DNA from: Actinomycetes bacterium
Lineage (GTDB): Bacteria > Actinomycetota > Acidimicrobiia > Acidimicrobiales > JAMCPL01
NCBI GenBank assembly: GCA_021816935.1
Contig: JAKAWR010000001.1
Span: 62,001-126,000, forward strand
Direction: 5' to 3'
DNA length: 64,000 nucleotides
Shown here piece by piece: positions 38,792 to 46,463 of this stretch (position 1 is the stretch's first letter; every line of letters starts with the position of its first letter). A program made the position numbers and the translations under genes. Under the pieces are notes generated by a model. It made no database searches, was not told the origin of the DNA, and saw only the letters and a program-made list of their open reading frames with translations.

Positions 38792-40150
38792 GTGAACAAG
38801 CGGATCTACGGTATCGAGAACGAGTACGGGGTGACCTACTCGTTTCGCGGCCAACGACGGCTCTCGCCGGACGAGGTTGCGCGGTACTTGTTCCGGCGGG
38901 TGGTCAGTTGGGGACGGTCGTCCAACGTTTTCCTCGAGAACGGCGCTCGGCTCTACCTGGACGTCGGGAGCCATCCGGAGTACGCGACGCCCGAATGCGA
39001 CACGATTGGCGATGTGGTCAAGTACGACAAAGCCGGTGAGCGGATTTTCGAGGGGCTAGCGGCGGCGGCGGAGTCGAGGCTGCATGAGGAGGGGCTTCGG
39101 GGCAGCGTACGAATCTTCAAGAACAATACCGACTTTGCCGGCAATTCCTACGGGTGCCACGAAAACTACCTGACCTCCAGGATGGACGATTTCAACCGGT
39201 ATGCTGAACGGCTCATCCCGTTCCTGGTGACGAGGCAGATCTATGCAGGCGCGGGAAAGGTGCTGCATAGCACCCGGGGTGCCATGTTCGCACTGTCACA
39301 GAGAGCGGAGCACGTCTGGGAGGGAGTCTCGTCGGCGACGACGAGAAGTAGGCCGATCATCAACACGAGAGACGAGCCGCATGCGGACGCCGAACGGTAC
39401 CGGCGGCTGCATGTGATCGTCGGCGACTCGAATATGAGTGAGTACGCGACCTTCCTGAAGGTTGGAGCTACCAGTATTGTGCTGAGGCTTATCGAGACGC
39501 CCTCCTTTGTCATGCGCGACCTCACAATCGAGAACCCGATCCGGGCCATCCGGGAGATCAGCCACGACACGACCTGCAGGCGAAAGGTGAAACTGGCCAA
39601 CGGGAGGGAGATGTCCGCTCTGGACCTGCAGTCTGCCTATCTGGAAAAGGCGTTGGCCTACCGGGACAAGACCGGGCTGCCTGCAGACGAGAGCCTCGCG
39701 CTCGACATGTGGGAGCACTGCTTGAAGGGGCTCGCATCGGATCCGCTCAGCCTGACCCGGGAATGCGACTGGGTGATCAAGTACAATCTTCTCGAGAAGT
39801 ACAGGGAGAGGAACGCTCTGGCCCTGGATCACCCGCGGGTGGCTCTGATGGATCTCCAGTACCACGAAATCATCCGGACGCGGGGTCTCTACTACCAGAT
39901 GGTGCAGCACAATCTTGTCGACCGGATTACGACCGACGAGGCCGTTGCCGAGGCAACGGACGTCCCCCCTGCCACTACAAGGGCGAAGCTCCGCGGCGAA
40001 TTCGTGCGCAAGGCGAAGCAGAAGGGGAGGGATTTCACAGTCGACTGGGTTCATCTCAAGTTGAACGATCAGGCCCAGCGCACGATCCTTCTCAAGAACC
40101 CGTTCAACTCGCATGACGAGAGAGTGGCCCGGCTGATGGAGAATCTATAA
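38792..40150 (+). CDS. pafA: Pup-protein ligase PafA
   Basis: PafA uses ATP to join the C-terminal Glu of Pup to substrate lysines. The 452-residue product starts with the family signature [15 protein letters not shown]. It also has [15 protein letters not shown] (the catalytic Asp is in this strand), [17 protein letters not shown] and [13 protein letters not shown]. It lacks the Dop-specific loop. The start is GTG 38792, with GGAGG about 12 bases upstream. It closes the proteasome cluster. Confidence 0.96.
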
Positions 40151-40186
40151 GCCGGGCCGCGCGGTAGGAAGCTCCGTCGCATCGGG

Positions 40187-40192
40187 TACGCT
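40187..40192 (+). promoter_or_regulatory. -10 hexamer TACGCT for lepB
   Basis: TACGCT lies 8 bases before ATG 40201. No Shine-Dalgarno is present. Confidence 0.45.
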
Positions 40193-40200
40193 GGGACCCG

Positions 40201-40995
40201 ATGAGCGCTGGCGATGACGGAGGTGTCAATCCGGTTGGGCACGATTTAGCGGGAGGTGGGCTCGCCTCGGGAGACGCGCCTCGGGAACGAGTCTCTGCTG
40301 AACAGAAGCTGGCCGAGAGGCCTGTCGGGGTGGGTTCGGAGGTGCCCGAGGACGCTGGATCGTCTGCTGTGGGTACCGCTGCTCCGCCCGGAGCGGGATT
40401 AGATCTGAAGCTCCGCCGTCCGGTGCCGAAGCGGAGGCGGTTCCGCCGGCGGTTGATCGAGTGGGCGATTATCCTTGTCGTGGCCGTCGCGGTTGCGGTT
40501 GTCGTGAGGACCTGGGTACTTGAGAGCTTCTTTATACCATCTGGGTCCATGGAGCCGACGCTGATGATCGGCGACAGGATTCTCGTCAACAAATTGAGCG
40601 TACATTCCAGTCGCATCAACGATGGGGAGATGGTTGTGTTCCGGCGCTCACCGAGTATGAATGTTGGTTCACCGAACATCAAGTATCTCGTCAAGCGGGT
40701 CGTGGCGGGCCCTGGGCAGACCATAGCCGTTCGTGGCGGCAGGGTCTGGGTGAATGGGAAACTCCAGCGGGAGAGCTATCTGCCGGCCGGTACCAGTTCG
40801 GTCTGCCGAATGGGCATGAGCGTCGTGTACTGCAGTGCCGCGGGCTACAAAGTGCCGCGAGGGGATTACTTCGTCATGGGCGACAACCGTGGGGACTCCG
40901 ATGACAGCAGGTACTTCGGGCCCGTACCCGGTCGGCTCGTGGTAGGTACGGTCTGGCTCAGGTTCTGGCCCCTCTCCAGGTTCAAGATCTTCTGA
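40201..40995 (+). CDS. lepB: Signal peptidase I
   Basis: This enzyme cleaves signal peptides from exported proteins at the outer face of the membrane. The 264-residue product has a disordered cytoplasmic N-terminus of ~75 residues. One transmembrane helix follows (about 82-103, AIILVVAVAVAVVVRTWVL). The box IPSGSMEPTL carries the catalytic Ser116, KYLVKRVVAGPG carries the general base Lys165, and MGDNRGDSDDSRYFG is the substrate-binding box E. Its own -10 hexamer sits 8 bases before the ATG. The tat genes follow, giving a protein-export group. Confidence 0.95.
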   Translation: MSAGDDGGVNPVGHDLAGGGLASGDAPRERVSAEQKLAERPVGVGSEVPEDAGSSAVGTAAPPGAGLDLKLRRPVPKRRRFRRRLIEWAIILVVAVAVAVVVRTWVLESFFIPSGSMEPTLMIGDRILVNKLSVHSSRINDGEMVVFRRSPSMNVGSPNIKYLVKRVVAGPGQTIAVRGGRVWVNGKLQRESYLPAGTSSVCRMGMSVVYCSAAGYKVPRGDYFVMGDNRGDSDDSRYFGPVPGRLVVGTVWLRFWPLSRFKIF

Positions 40996-41020
40996 AACCG
41001 GCGGGCGACCACCCCGGGGG

Positions 41021-41026
41021 TAGAAT
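41021..41026 (+). promoter_or_regulatory. -10 hexamer TAGAAT for tatA
   Basis: TAGAAT lies 8 bases before GTG 41035. Confidence 0.45.
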
Positions 41027-41034
41027 GATTCACG

Positions 41035-41712
41035 GTGCTCTCGATTACGCCTGTAAAGCTGATGATCGTGCTGCTCTTCGGGCTCATCATCCTGGGTCCG
41101 GACAAGCTGCCCCAGGTGGCGCGGCAGGTGGGGCAGGCGTGGTCGGATTTCAAGAAGTTTCGGCAGCGCCTGGAGAACGAGGTGCGGTCCGCCGTTCCGC
41201 AGTTGCCGTCGACGACGGAACTGACGAGCGTGATTCGTTCTCCCGTCGCGCTGCTCGATAGGCTGGCCTACGACCACGAGCAGAAAGCGTCCTCCGAGGC
41301 CGCAATGGTTGCGGCCGCGGAGCGGGAGCGTGCCCGCAATGCTGCAGCATTGTCGGCCGAGCAGAGTTCTCCTGCCGGAGCGGGCAACACCGGCGACGCA
41401 GCCAGTAGCGCAGGAGAGCTTAGCGCAGGTGCCGGTGGGGGAGTAGGGGAGGGCGCAGTCGGGGGTGCCGGGCCGGATGGCGTGCCGCCTATTGGCACGG
41501 GCGGGGAGCCAATAGCAGGAGATTCCCGGGTGCAGGAGAATGTTGTGGGGGGCGAGAGCGTGCACCCTCGGACCGGCAGAGCTGGGATTGGCCAAGACAG
41601 TGGAATGGAGGCGGGTTCGCGTGCCAGCGGCGCCAACGTCAATGGGGGTACTGCGGGGGGGCTTGCGGAGGAGACTGAGAGTATTCTCTCGTCGGCCCAC
41701 AACTTCAACTGA
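41035..41712 (+). CDS. tatA: Sec-independent translocase TatA/TatB-like protein
   Basis: This is the pore-forming or receptor small subunit of the twin-arginine export system. It has one N-terminal membrane helix (PVKLMIVLLFGLIILGPDKLP) with the Gly-Pro hinge, then an amphipathic helix (VARQVGQAWSDFKKFRQRLENEV). At 225 residues it is longer than typical TatA; the last ~140 residues are low-complexity Gly/Ala/Ser. The GPDKLP hinge and length are closer to actinobacterial TatB, so TatB is possible. It lies 14 bases before tatC, presumably co-transcribed. Confidence 0.82.
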   Translation: MLSITPVKLMIVLLFGLIILGPDKLPQVARQVGQAWSDFKKFRQRLENEVRSAVPQLPSTTELTSVIRSPVALLDRLAYDHEQKASSEAAMVAAAERERARNAAALSAEQSSPAGAGNTGDAASSAGELSAGAGGGVGEGAVGGAGPDGVPPIGTGGEPIAGDSRVQENVVGGESVHPRTGRAGIGQDSGMEAGSRASGANVNGGTAGGLAEETESILSSAHNFN

Positions 41713-41726
41713 GCCGGCAGCGCCTT

Positions 41727-42539
41727 GTGAGTTTTCGCAACTGGGTGCATGGCCGCAGGCGGAAGAGGGAAGCCCCGATGTCCCTCGTGGAGCACCTCAC
41801 CGAGCTGCGCCGGAGGGTCATCCTGGTGGTGGTGGTGTTCGTGGTGTTCGGGGTGGGCAGCTTCGTCTTTTACCCGCAGATACTGCACGCGCTTCAGGCT
41901 CCGTATTGCCGCGTCAGCCGATCGTGCAAGTTCTTCATCACCACTCCGCTCGGAGGTCTGTCCATCCGGGTAAATGTTGCCATGTACGGCGGTGCGATCC
42001 TGGCAAGTCCCGTGGCGTTGTGGGAGGCATGGCGCTTCGTCACACCGGGCCTCAAGGCCAACGAGAGGCGGTACGCCGCTCTGTTCGTGTCGTCAGCGAT
42101 CCTGCTCTTTGCCGGCGGCGCGGCGGTTGCGTACCTGACATTCCCTCACGCAATGGGGTTCCTCAACGCCATTGGCGGAAGCTCCATAAGGCAGATCTAC
42201 AGCCCGTCGAGCTACGTGAACCTGATCCTGGCACTGATGGCGATTTTCGGGGTGTCCTTCGAGTTTCCGGTCGTTCTCGTGGGGTTGCAGCTGGCCGGTA
42301 TCGTAAGCCCAAAGACGCTTGGCAAGTGGCGGAGGCTGGCTGCTTTTCTCATCGTGGCTCTGGCGGCCGTGATAACCCCGTCGGGAGACCCGTTCTCGAT
42401 GTTCGCGTTGGCCGTTCCGATGTACGTGTTCTACGAGCTGTCGATATGGCTGGCCAAGCTGATCTTGCACAGGAGAGAGGTCCGTGCTTCTGCAGCACCG
42501 GAACCTGCCGCCGCTACAGAGGGGGGCGCGGCGGGATAG
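41727..42539 (+). CDS. tatC: Sec-independent translocase TatC
   Basis: TatC is the signal-peptide receptor of the twin-arginine system. The 270-residue product has the hallmark N-terminal SLVEHLTELRRRVILV, six hydrophobic segments, and the conserved FVTPGLKANERRYA loop between TM2 and TM3. The C-terminus is Ala-rich and cytoplasmic. Together with tatA and lepB it forms a small export cluster adjacent to the proteasome genes. Confidence 0.95.
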   Translation: MSFRNWVHGRRRKREAPMSLVEHLTELRRRVILVVVVFVVFGVGSFVFYPQILHALQAPYCRVSRSCKFFITTPLGGLSIRVNVAMYGGAILASPVALWEAWRFVTPGLKANERRYAALFVSSAILLFAGGAAVAYLTFPHAMGFLNAIGGSSIRQIYSPSSYVNLILALMAIFGVSFEFPVVLVGLQLAGIVSPKTLGKWRRLAAFLIVALAAVITPSGDPFSMFALAVPMYVFYELSIWLAKLILHRREVRASAAPEPAAATEGGAAG

Positions 42540-42678
42540 GGGATAGGGGGTTTGTGCGGTGATCGCGCCCAGCTGTGCAGCCCGGCGGGGAGGACGGCGC
42601 AGCGGCGGCGCGTGAAAATGACACTTCAACCTGGATCAGGACGTGAGCGCAATCCGACACCGGCGGGCCGCGCTGCTC

Positions 42679-42684
42679 TATTCT
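42679..42684 (+). promoter_or_regulatory. Possible -10 TATTCT for the ThyX-like gene
   Basis: TATTCT ends 9 bases before ATG 42694. It supports that ATG over the in-frame GTG at 42643. Confidence 0.35.
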
Positions 42685-42693
42685 GTTGACTGC

Positions 42694-44421
42694 ATGTTCC
42701 CCTACGCCGAAGAAGAGTTCACCGAGGACGAGGAGGATCTCCTTTCCGCCTACTTCACGAACACGACCGGACCGGTCTTTGCCCTTGTGAATCTGGACGA
42801 GGTGGTAAAAGGGGCCCTTTTTGCGCGTTACTCGCGATCTGCCAAGAGCCTGCGTAGGCTTTTCCTGGACGAGTTCGCATCGGACGTCATCGGGCACAAG
42901 AAGAAGGGGTTCGCCGGGGAGGGTACCGGCGGTGGCATAGGCGAGGCAAGGGCCCGCCGGTTGTACGGCACGGTATTCTCCGAGTACGGCGATGATTCGG
43001 TTGCCCAGCTTGGAGGGTTACATCTCGCCTGTGAGCAGGCCTCTAACCTGCTCACGAAGATCCTGGAGCGCTCGCGGCTCATGTCGTACCTGGAGCAGTC
43101 GACGCGGTATATTGCTTACGACGTCCGTCTTCCCAACGGCAGGTACAGGTATTACCGGGATCCTGAGGTTCTGGACTCGCAGCTTGGTGCTGTATACGTG
43201 GCTTCCATGGACGCGATGTTCGACGCCTATAGGGACGCGGTACCTAAGCTCGAGGGTTTTCTCGCTCGCGCTCATCCCAAGAAGGCGGACGAGCCCGACA
43301 TTGCCCATCGTAGAGCCGTGCGAGCGAGGGCACTCGATCTCGCACGGGGCTTGCTGCCTACTGCCTCGCTTTCGAACGTTGGGATCTACGGGAGTGGACA
43401 GGCTATTGAGCGACTCGTGCTGCGGTTGCGCTCAAGCCTGCTTCCCGAGGCACGTGGCTACGCTGAGATGGTGCTGGAGGAGGCGAGAAAGGTAATTCCG
43501 TCATTTCTTGATCGTGTGGATCGTGCGGATCGGGGCCTTGCCTGGCAGCAGTACCTGGAGGATAAGCGCAACCGGATGCACGACATAGTGGCTGCGATAA
43601 GCGATGGAGATGGGGGGCAGTCTGACGCGCGTTCGAGTGACGGCCGATCCGGGGATGTTCTTGCCGACGAGCGGGCGGTCGTTGGGCTGGGAAGCTACGA
43701 CCCGCTGGGAGAGGACCGAGTACTGGCAGCCGCGCTTTTCGAGTTCTCGGACCGCTCTATTTCGGATTGCGCTGAGCGGGTGGAGCGCATGAGTTACGAA
43801 GAGAGAGGCGCATTACTCGCTGCCTATCTGGGGGAACGAGGCAACAGGCGCCACAGGCCAGGCAGGGCATTGGAGGTGACAGCGTACACCTTCGAGATCG
43901 TATCCGATTACGGCGCGTTCAGGGATCTTCAGAGACACAGGATGCTTACGGTCGACTGGCAGCGCTTCACCCCGGAGCTCGGGTTCACAATTCCGCCAGA
44001 GCTCGTCGAGGCAGGGGTCGACGCCACATACAGGGCGACGCTGTCGCAGTCGCAGGAGTTGTACGAAGCCATGGTCGGGAGATTCCCTGAGCAGGCTCCG
44101 TACGTGCTTGGTCTTGCGCACCGAATCCGATACGCGATGACGATGAACGCGAGAGAGGCGATGCACGTTATCGAGCTCAGAACGTCTCCGCAGGGTCATG
44201 AGGTGTACCGTCAGATAGCGCAGGAGATGCACTGCCTCATTCGGGACAAGGCGGGTCATGCGAATATTGCGGGCTGCTTTACGTTTGCCGACCACTCGGG
44301 CGAGTCGCTTGGGAGGCGAGTCGCAGAGAGTCTGGCGGCGGTGCGTACGATAGGTGAATCGGGGACAAATGCAGCCGCGAGGACGCCGGAAGGCGGCGGG
44401 GCCGTCGTGGTTAGCAAGTGA
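42694..44421 (+). CDS. Tandem two-domain ThyX-like flavin-dependent thymidylate synthase
   Basis: ThyX makes dTMP from dUMP with FAD and methylene-tetrahydrofolate. This product is ~575 residues, about twice the usual 220-250. It contains two ThyX-like halves. The N half has RSRLMSYLEQSTRY (126-139), where the family has RHR...S.NE.S.RY, so His and Asn are replaced but the Ser, Glu and Arg-Tyr remain. The C half has RHRMLTVDWQRF (414-425), keeping RHR but losing the later Ser and Arg-Tyr, and retains MNAREAMHVIELR. Length and two-domain layout suggest a fused pseudo-dimer. A GTG at 42643 would add 17 residues. Confidence 0.75.
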   Translation: MFPYAEEEFTEDEEDLLSAYFTNTTGPVFALVNLDEVVKGALFARYSRSAKSLRRLFLDEFASDVIGHKKKGFAGEGTGGGIGEARARRLYGTVFSEYGDDSVAQLGGLHLACEQASNLLTKILERSRLMSYLEQSTRYIAYDVRLPNGRYRYYRDPEVLDSQLGAVYVASMDAMFDAYRDAVPKLEGFLARAHPKKADEPDIAHRRAVRARALDLARGLLPTASLSNVGIYGSGQAIERLVLRLRSSLLPEARGYAEMVLEEARKVIPSFLDRVDRADRGLAWQQYLEDKRNRMHDIVAAISDGDGGQSDARSSDGRSGDVLADERAVVGLGSYDPLGEDRVLAAALFEFSDRSISDCAERVERMSYEERGALLAAYLGERGNRRHRPGRALEVTAYTFEIVSDYGAFRDLQRHRMLTVDWQRFTPELGFTIPPELVEAGVDATYRATLSQSQELYEAMVGRFPEQAPYVLGLAHRIRYAMTMNAREAMHVIELRTSPQGHEVYRQIAQEMHCLIRDKAGHANIAGCFTFADHSGESLGRRVAESLAAVRTIGESGTNAAARTPEGGGAVVVSK

Positions 44422-44528: not shown

Positions 44529-45047
44529 GTGAAGAATATCGAGGAGATTCAGGAGCCGGAGGCGGATCTGGATGACGCTGGATTGGACGACGCTGATCTT
44601 GACGCGGAGGTGGGGGAGGATTTCGAGGGCGATTTCGAAGATGGCGAATTCGGCGTCGAAGGGCCCGATGAAGAGGATCTCGCAGATGACGAAGAGGACG
44701 GGCAGCCGCTAGACGAGGGCAGTCTTAGTAAGTCGTCGTCCGTTGAGACTGGTGGAGCTGATGACATAGCTGAAGCTGGCGGGCCGTACGACGGTACCGA
44801 GGCGGATGCGGAGAGGGGCGATGATGTCGAAGTCAGCCTTGATCGAATCCTTTCGAAAAGGCTTGATTCGGGAGATGACGAGGAGGAGGGCGGGTCCGGC
44901 TTCTTCCAGGAGGATCGCGATTCGGACACGATGGAGCATGCCCTGCCCAGGCAGCCCGATGAGTTCGTGTGTCGATCATGCTTTCTCGTCAAGAACGTCG
45001 CTCAGCTCGCCGATCGTAAGCGACGGCTCTGCAAGGATTGCATCTGA
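44529..45047 (+). CDS. DUF4193 family zinc-ribbon protein with long acidic N-terminus
   Basis: This is a 172-residue protein. Its C-terminal ~35 residues, DEFVCRSCFLVKNVAQLADR then LCKDC, match the actinobacterial DUF4193 family: two CxxC knuckles, likely binding zinc. The first ~130 residues are strongly acidic (Asp/Glu-rich, few hydrophobics) and probably disordered. Most DUF4193 proteins are near 100 residues, so the acidic arm is extended. The start is GTG 44529 with GAGGAC a few bases upstream. Function is unknown, but the family is near-universal in actinobacteria. Confidence 0.8.
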   Translation: MKNIEEIQEPEADLDDAGLDDADLDAEVGEDFEGDFEDGEFGVEGPDEEDLADDEEDGQPLDEGSLSKSSSVETGGADDIAEAGGPYDGTEADAERGDDVEVSLDRILSKRLDSGDDEEEGGSGFFQEDRDSDTMEHALPRQPDEFVCRSCFLVKNVAQLADRKRRLCKDCI

Positions 45048-45890: not shown

Positions 45891-46463
45891 GTGCCAGGTG
45901 GTGGGCTACGTTGTGGTCGTGAGGTGAAGGGCGGCGGCGAGCCGGTCGTGCGGCATGCGAGACCGGACCCTTCGGCTGGCGCTTGCTGTGATGTGAGCGT
46001 CCAGCGAACCCGGCCAGAGGACGCGGATGAAGTTTCTGTCCTGTGCAGGGAAGCCGTCCGGGCTATCGAGGGTCGGCGTGGGGCGGACCAACTGCTTTCG
46101 GGGAGTAGGAGGGATCTCGCAGAACGCCTGTCCTCACCAGCGGGGGTACGGGAGCTGCTTGGTGAAGGCGGAAGGATCGTCGTGTCGGGCTTCTACGCGG
46201 GGGTGGTTGCCGGATTTGCGGTCGGCTCGATCGATCCGGAGGCGACGCCACGCCGCGGGATACTGCATGGTGTGTACGTTGCGGCCGGGCTAAGGGAGCT
46301 TGGCACCGGCGGAGCCCTGCTGGAAACGATGCTACAGGTTTTCCGCGATGCGGAGTGCCAGTCAGTGGAGGCTTACTGCCTGCCCGGGGACAGGGCTACA
46401 AAGAGGCTTCTCGAGGCGGCCGGCATGACGGCAAAACTGCTGACGGTGGCAACTGCGTTGTGA
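45891..46463 (+). CDS. GNAT-family N-acetyltransferase
   Basis: This is a 190-residue product with one acetyltransferase domain. It has the N-terminal strand-helix VSVQRTRPEDADEVSVLCREA, the central beta-hairpin AGFAVGSIDP, and the acetyl-CoA-binding region LHGVYVAAGLRELGTGGALLE. YCLPGDRATKRLLEAAGM near the end is typical. The start is uncertain: GTG codons at 45891, 45948 and 45993 are all in frame, and the domain itself starts just after 45993. The substrate is unknown. Confidence 0.8.
   Translation: MPGGGLRCGREVKGGGEPVVRHARPDPSAGACCDVSVQRTRPEDADEVSVLCREAVRAIEGRRGADQLLSGSRRDLAERLSSPAGVRELLGEGGRIVVSGFYAGVVAGFAVGSIDPEATPRRGILHGVYVAAGLRELGTGGALLETMLQVFRDAECQSVEAYCLPGDRATKRLLEAAGMTAKLLTVATAL

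Follow-up and report, generated by a model that had tools for sequence, protein, structure and literature searches.

The double ThyX encoded in the window (the whole 64,000-nucleotide stretch of DNA analysed here) consists of two ThyX domains fused in one chain, which keep complementary parts of the active-site residue set, and the same division of residues was found in all of the 106 doubles compared. The protein is most likely a thymidylate synthase that works as a two-chain pseudo-tetramer, with two composite and two degenerate active sites.

Domain Organization and Predicted Structure

The reading frame is open from an upstream in-frame GTG (window 42643-44421, + strand, 592 aa), while the start of most homologues corresponds to the nearer ATG at position 42694. 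Residue numbers of the window protein given below are counted from the GTG at 42643. The positions of the gene, its domains and the main active-site motifs are presented in Table 1.

Table 1. Features of the double ThyX gene and its product in the window.
Feature	Window coordinates	Strand	Basis
Double ThyX CDS, likely ATG start, 575 aa	42694-44421	+	ORF and homologue starts
N-terminal Thy1 domain match, profile 36-191, 52 bits	42946-43503	+	genome profile search
N-half motif RSRLMSYLEQSTRY, residues 143-156	43069-43110	+	sequence, alignment
N-half R235, equivalent of Tm R147	43345-43347	+	alignment; in 106/106 N halves, 1/106 C halves
C-terminal Thy1 domain match, profile 47-187, 83 bits	43849-44247	+	genome profile search
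C-half RHR, R431-H432-R433, equivalent of Tm R78-H79-R80	43933-43941	+	alignment
C-half MNAREAMHVIELR, residues 501-513	44143-44181	+	alignment; Tm N163, R165, H/N169, R174

Thy1 (PF02511) was the sole Pfam family matched by the window protein, in two stretches with a total score of 136.2 bits (cut-off, 24.8), and the genome profile search revealed that each half separately exceeds this cut-off too; the ThyA domain (PF00303, Thymidylat_synt) was not found in the protein. In profile-profile comparisons, both halves aligned with canonical ThyX (N half: probability, 98.3%; E-value, 1.2e-14; C half: probability, 99.3%; E-value, 2.1e-20). Thus, the description of a protein of ~575 residues with two ThyX-like halves, given in the first-pass annotation, holds, and the motifs quoted there are present exactly in the N and C halves. 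The score of the window protein against the NCBIfam thyX equivalog TIGR02170 lies under the cut-off of that model (66.7 vs. 87.9 bits).

The full-chain AlphaFold2 model, built from seven sequences as a single chain, has a mean pLDDT of 73 and a pTM of 0.70. A Foldseek search of the PDB with this model returned only ThyX among the top 50 matches, and its best match in the viral model library, nearly full length, was the 491-residue thymidylate synthase of Microcystis phage LMM01. Folded alone, the N half gave a poor model (pLDDT, 67), for which ThyX ranked top with a TM-score of about 0.3.

The genes located 5' of the double ThyX (window 38792-42539, + strand) encode a Pup ligase, signal peptidase I, a TatA/B-type protein and TatC, and those on the 3' side encode a DUF4193 protein (44529-45047) followed by a GNAT acetyltransferase (45891-46463). 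In a relative (L003), a peptidase-like ORF, not tatC, is found directly upstream of the double ThyX; therefore, the gene context is not conserved.

Partition of Active-Site Residues between the Halves

Active-site positions are numbered after Thermotoga (Tm) ThyX, and the numbering was verified against R78, R80, S88 and R90 as named in PMC3498832 and against PDB alignments. In the window protein, the N-half motif, running from R143 to Y156, retains the equivalents of Tm E86, S88, R90 and Y91, and the RHR of this half is degraded to RSR. The C-half motif starting at position 43933 reads R431-H-R-M-L-T-V-D-W-Q-R-F442, and the second C-half stretch extends from M501 to R513. Neither domain carries the complete RHR-x7-S-x-R-Y signature, as its RHR is located in the C half and its S-x-R-Y in the N half.

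For comparison, 106 doubles were split into halves and aligned with 34 canonical ThyX sequences. The halves were picked by the motifs S-x-R-[YFA] and RH[RN], with no sequence discarded; the counts for R147 and R174, as well as the negative counts, are independent of these motifs. S88, R90 and R147 are present in all 106 N halves but only in eight, one and one of the 106 C halves, respectively, and Y91 is found in 104/106 N halves versus 1/106 C halves. The C halves, in turn, invariably have R78, H79 and R174 (106/106 each, versus 27, 17 and 75 of the 106 N halves), and R80 is kept in 105 of them, compared with 82 N halves. R78, H79 and R80 occur together in none of the 106 N halves, and S88 together with R90 in none of the 106 C halves. 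Among the 22 positions that are near-invariant in canonical ThyX, not a single one is kept at ≥90% in both halves of the doubles; under strict cut-offs, nine are N-only and three are C-only. In place of the dUMP loop, the C halves of the Actinomycetota-type set have a loop with a conserved T-x-x-W-Q-x-L of its own.

It is very unlikely that the doubles possess two independent homotypic sites whose residues were misassigned by the alignment (e.g., with another Arg or Ser from the C-half loop). Although alignment is difficult in the C-half loop that follows RHR, where two residues are deleted and position 441 is an R, and R80, N163 and R174 are kept in some of the N halves, RHR is found in no N half, S-x-R-Y near RHR is found in no C half, and the conserved motif of the C-half loop is unlike the dUMP loop. 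Because the same division of residues is observed in 106/106 doubles, which come from several phyla as well as from phages, chance can be excluded as its cause. Independent decay of two redundant copies was also considered and was ruled out by the direction of loss, which is identical in 106/106 cases.

H53, which in Tm ThyX stacks on folate and flavin, is without a clear equivalent in the C halves, and at the corresponding position the N halves have D in 61% and H in 37% of all cases, with D reaching 96% in the Actinomycetota-type set. Since H53 is not conserved, the folate site of the doubles must differ somewhat. In a phage double (L083, 2998-4512), the N-half lid tyrosine (Tm Y91) is replaced by alanine (EQSTRA), which is rare. 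Acidobacteriota doubles of the HPFYNSEQVSQRY type (L130-L151) make up a second subfamily, in which the RHR is wholly lost from the N half (SHP, AHP).

Proposed Composite Active Sites

According to the literature, a single active site of M. tuberculosis (Mtb) ThyX is built from RHR (95-97) and R199 of subunit A, S71 and R190 of subunit B, and S105, R107 and the lid residue Y108 of subunit C (PMC6514825). Likewise, in an inhibitor complex of PBCV-1 ThyX, Gln-75 and Arg-182 come from one monomer and Ser-88 from the other (PMC3498832). Mtb R199 and PBCV-1 Arg-182 are equivalent to Tm R174, Mtb S105/R107/Y108 to Tm S88/R90/Y91, and Mtb R190 to Tm R165. In the doubles, the subunit-A residue set is located in the C half and the subunit-C residue set in the N half. 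As the residues kept in the halves match the subunits of solved ThyX, the split would thus correspond to the subunit division of one active site. A pseudo-tetramer with composite sites had been put forward in the first-pass annotation, and this subunit-by-subunit match in sequence makes it the best-supported reading.

It is highly unlikely that catalysis rests with the C half alone, as a ThyX that forms sites with other C halves, and that the N half persists as a leftover with a structural or regulatory role. The C half is the stronger ThyX match and keeps all of the FAD-contact residues, but it is short of the residues that bind dUMP, with S88 together with R90 missing from all C halves and R147 from 105/106. 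Moreover, these dUMP-binding residues are present in all N halves, which would not be expected of a leftover.

Under the composite-site reading, the four ThyX folds of two chains would assemble into a pseudo-tetramer. Symmetry then predicts two sites with the full residue set and two in which neither part is complete. In the complete sites, RHR, which contacts the FAD phosphates and the flavin, and R174, for uracil activation, would come from the C half, with an N half adding S88, R90, Y91 and probably R147 for the dUMP phosphate and the lid. The two complete sites would be expected to carry out the normal reaction, in which the CH2 group passes from CH2-tetrahydrofolate to flavin N5 and on to dUMP. 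At the remaining two positions, the N-half remnants of RHR would lie opposite the C-half remnants of SxRY, and these sites may be dead or structural. R165 is retained in most C halves, which suggests that a C half could also supply the third, subunit-B contribution; FAD would then be bound mainly between C halves, and the nearly invariant R408 would stand in place of S71.

The doubles probably represent a ThyX class whose fourfold symmetry was permanently broken by duplication, in which C is the flavin half, N is the dUMP half, and only two of the four sites are working. If so, they would be a natural 'half-the-sites' thymidylate synthase, with dead sites that are free to evolve for regulation.

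Thymidylate Supply in the Host Genome and Its Order

Profile searches of the host genome (2.3 Mb, 85.5% complete) revealed no other Thy1, no ThyA (PF00303), and no match to DHFR_1 or thymidine kinase. At this completeness its own absences are provisional, and relatives were hence added to the comparison. Of the 59 genomes of the order that were compared, 58 carry Thy1; each of these has a pair of matches within a single open frame and no single-domain ThyX, and the only extra Thy1 was a partial second copy at a contig edge in G012. ThyA is present in one of the 59 genomes, which is not that of the host. Across the order and other classes of Actinomycetota, the double proteins share 45-59% identity, and single-domain ThyX proteins are weak matches. 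A check for thyA or a normal thyX elsewhere in the genome, called for in the first-pass annotation, thus found neither, and ThyA is likewise absent from 58/59 genomes of the order.

Therefore, the double ThyX looks like the only dTMP-making enzyme of this bacterium and, as gene content indicates, is the predicted standard thymidylate synthase of the order; we infer its activity, the FAD- and NADPH-dependent conversion of dUMP to dTMP, from the fact that no alternative thymidylate synthase was found. In another member of the order, G035 (92% complete), neither Thy1 nor ThyA was detected, which reflects either an assembly gap or another dTMP source.

Distribution outside the Order

Outside the order, two-domain ThyX is frequent in other Actinomycetota as well as among Acidobacteriota, and it is also present in Bacteroidota, Bacillota and large phages. 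Among 119 genomes of Acidobacteriota (the phylum of the Holophagae relative), two Thy1 matches were found in 58, one in 32 and none in 29, and the two-match cases are nearly all single frames of about 480-690 residues. Full-length ThyA was detected in 24 genomes, all of which belong to the 29 that lack Thy1, so that none of the 58 two-match genomes has it (Fisher p = 7e-17 for the two-match group versus the group lacking Thy1, with related genomes not being independent). This mutual exclusivity indicates that the double form, where present, replaces ThyA. One genome of the phylum, G111, has two full-length double ThyX genes (C5, C71) compared with the usual single copy.

The distribution also bears on the proposal, made in the first-pass annotation as an alternative, that the fusion has changed its substrate or role (e.g., to the methylation or hydroxymethylation of another uracil nucleotide) and makes no dTMP for the cell. 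Such a change is very improbable. A score below the ThyX equivalog cut-off would fit it, as would PDB entry 3ge9, a C. glutamicum ThyX that the title of the entry describes as not required for thymidylate synthesis. However, the double occurs throughout the order as a single-copy gene and is the one thymidylate synthase found there, it is mutually exclusive with ThyA in Acidobacteriota, and its dUMP and uracil contact residues are invariant. With no other ThyX or ThyA in the host genome, and ThyA missing from 58/59 genomes of the order, the changed substrate is left unsupported.

Doubles were also found on plasmid records of Miltoncostaea, Euzebya, Parabacteroides and Paenibacillus, the RefSeq name of these copies being FAD-dependent thymidylate synthase, as well as in phage Tunturi_5 and large IMG/VR phage contigs. 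The likelihood that a chimeric fusion of two genes arose from assembly or annotation is virtually nil, and this artefact was ruled out by the same single frame recurring in dozens of independent genomes, in addition to the phage and plasmid records. Several of the doubles adjoin genes of nucleotide metabolism: dCTP deaminase on the Euzebya plasmid, dUTPase and dCMP deaminase in Tunturi_5, and thymidine kinase in L084. Viral scans with single divergent queries matched only the queries themselves.

Some of these loci have unusual features. The record labelled as a Parabacteroides distasonis plasmid (L059, NZ_OY725790.1) encodes a double ThyX with 43% identity to the window protein, next to a HIT-domain protein and an ATP-binding protein. 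The annotated dCMP deaminase of Tunturi_5 (L057, 1641-2603) also has a CBM_5_12 match of 39 bits, which is an odd pairing. Upstream of the double in phage contig L082, two ORFs (794-1480 and 2099-2797) consist of short degenerate repeats of the AxVGxxAxVG type.

Origin of the Fusion

In a tree built from both halves of the 106 doubles together with the 34 canonical ThyX sequences, the C halves group together with a support of 0.80, and 87 of the N halves form one clade (support, 0.999). The other 19 N halves, all from Acidobacteriota doubles of the HPFYNSEQVSQRY type, are placed apart from this clade, and these doubles may be an independent fusion. The distances among N halves and among C halves are correlated (r = 0.96), partly since related organisms are compared with themselves. 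The tree is compatible with one or with several origins of the fusion of two ThyX domains.

Comparison with Known Systems

Although thymidylate synthase is an essential enzyme, and its ThyX form a drug target, this widespread double branch appears never to have been characterized. The doubles do not fit the textbook model of four identical sites; pipelines annotate them as ordinary ThyX, and predictions on inhibitors or mechanism that are based on the homotetramer may therefore not transfer to them. They also constitute a natural separation-of-function experiment: they reveal which residues have to be contributed by different subunits, and single active sites could be mutated in them while the symmetry-related counterparts stay intact, with implications for the shuttling of CH2 through the flavin of ThyX.

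The two-domain architecture itself is already in print and annotated: Valas and Bourne noted in 2009 that the ThyX of most Chloroflexi has undergone a domain duplication, which in their words 'has not been characterized' (PMC3224940). The residue partition and mechanism are not described in that paper, and the Chloroflexi proteins resemble the doubles by description. No published account of the partition was found in the open literature searched, and to the extent of that search the invariant division of the active site is unreported.

Among phage enzymes, the thymidylate synthase of Microcystis phage LMM01 is a full-length structural match to the model of the window protein, and the double of Tunturiibacter phage Tunturi_5 has the same half order and the same partition. 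Both differ from the window protein in their context of phage nucleotide metabolism and share about 20-30% identity with it. The ThyX of C. trachomatis, about 530 residues long, may be a double as well. That enzyme is active and has been used in assays (PMC3498832).

Canonical ThyX, a homotetramer known from TM0449, M. tuberculosis, H. pylori and PBCV-1, belongs to the same fold family as both halves of the double. When its halves are summed, the double has all the dUMP- and FAD-contact residues of canonical ThyX, and, like its canonical counterpart, it is the only thymidylate synthase found in its genome. In contrast to canonical ThyX, it consists of two fused, diverged domains, does not conserve H53, and has RHR and R174 guaranteed only in the C half and S88, R90, Y91 and R147 only in the N half. 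Canonical ThyX has four identical sites, each built by three subunits, whereas the double would imply four folds in two chains and two kinds of site. A working parallel for the fused, diverged ThyX halves is provided by mammalian adenylyl cyclase, in which two fused and diverged halves, derived from a homodimeric ancestor, form one active and one degenerate site.
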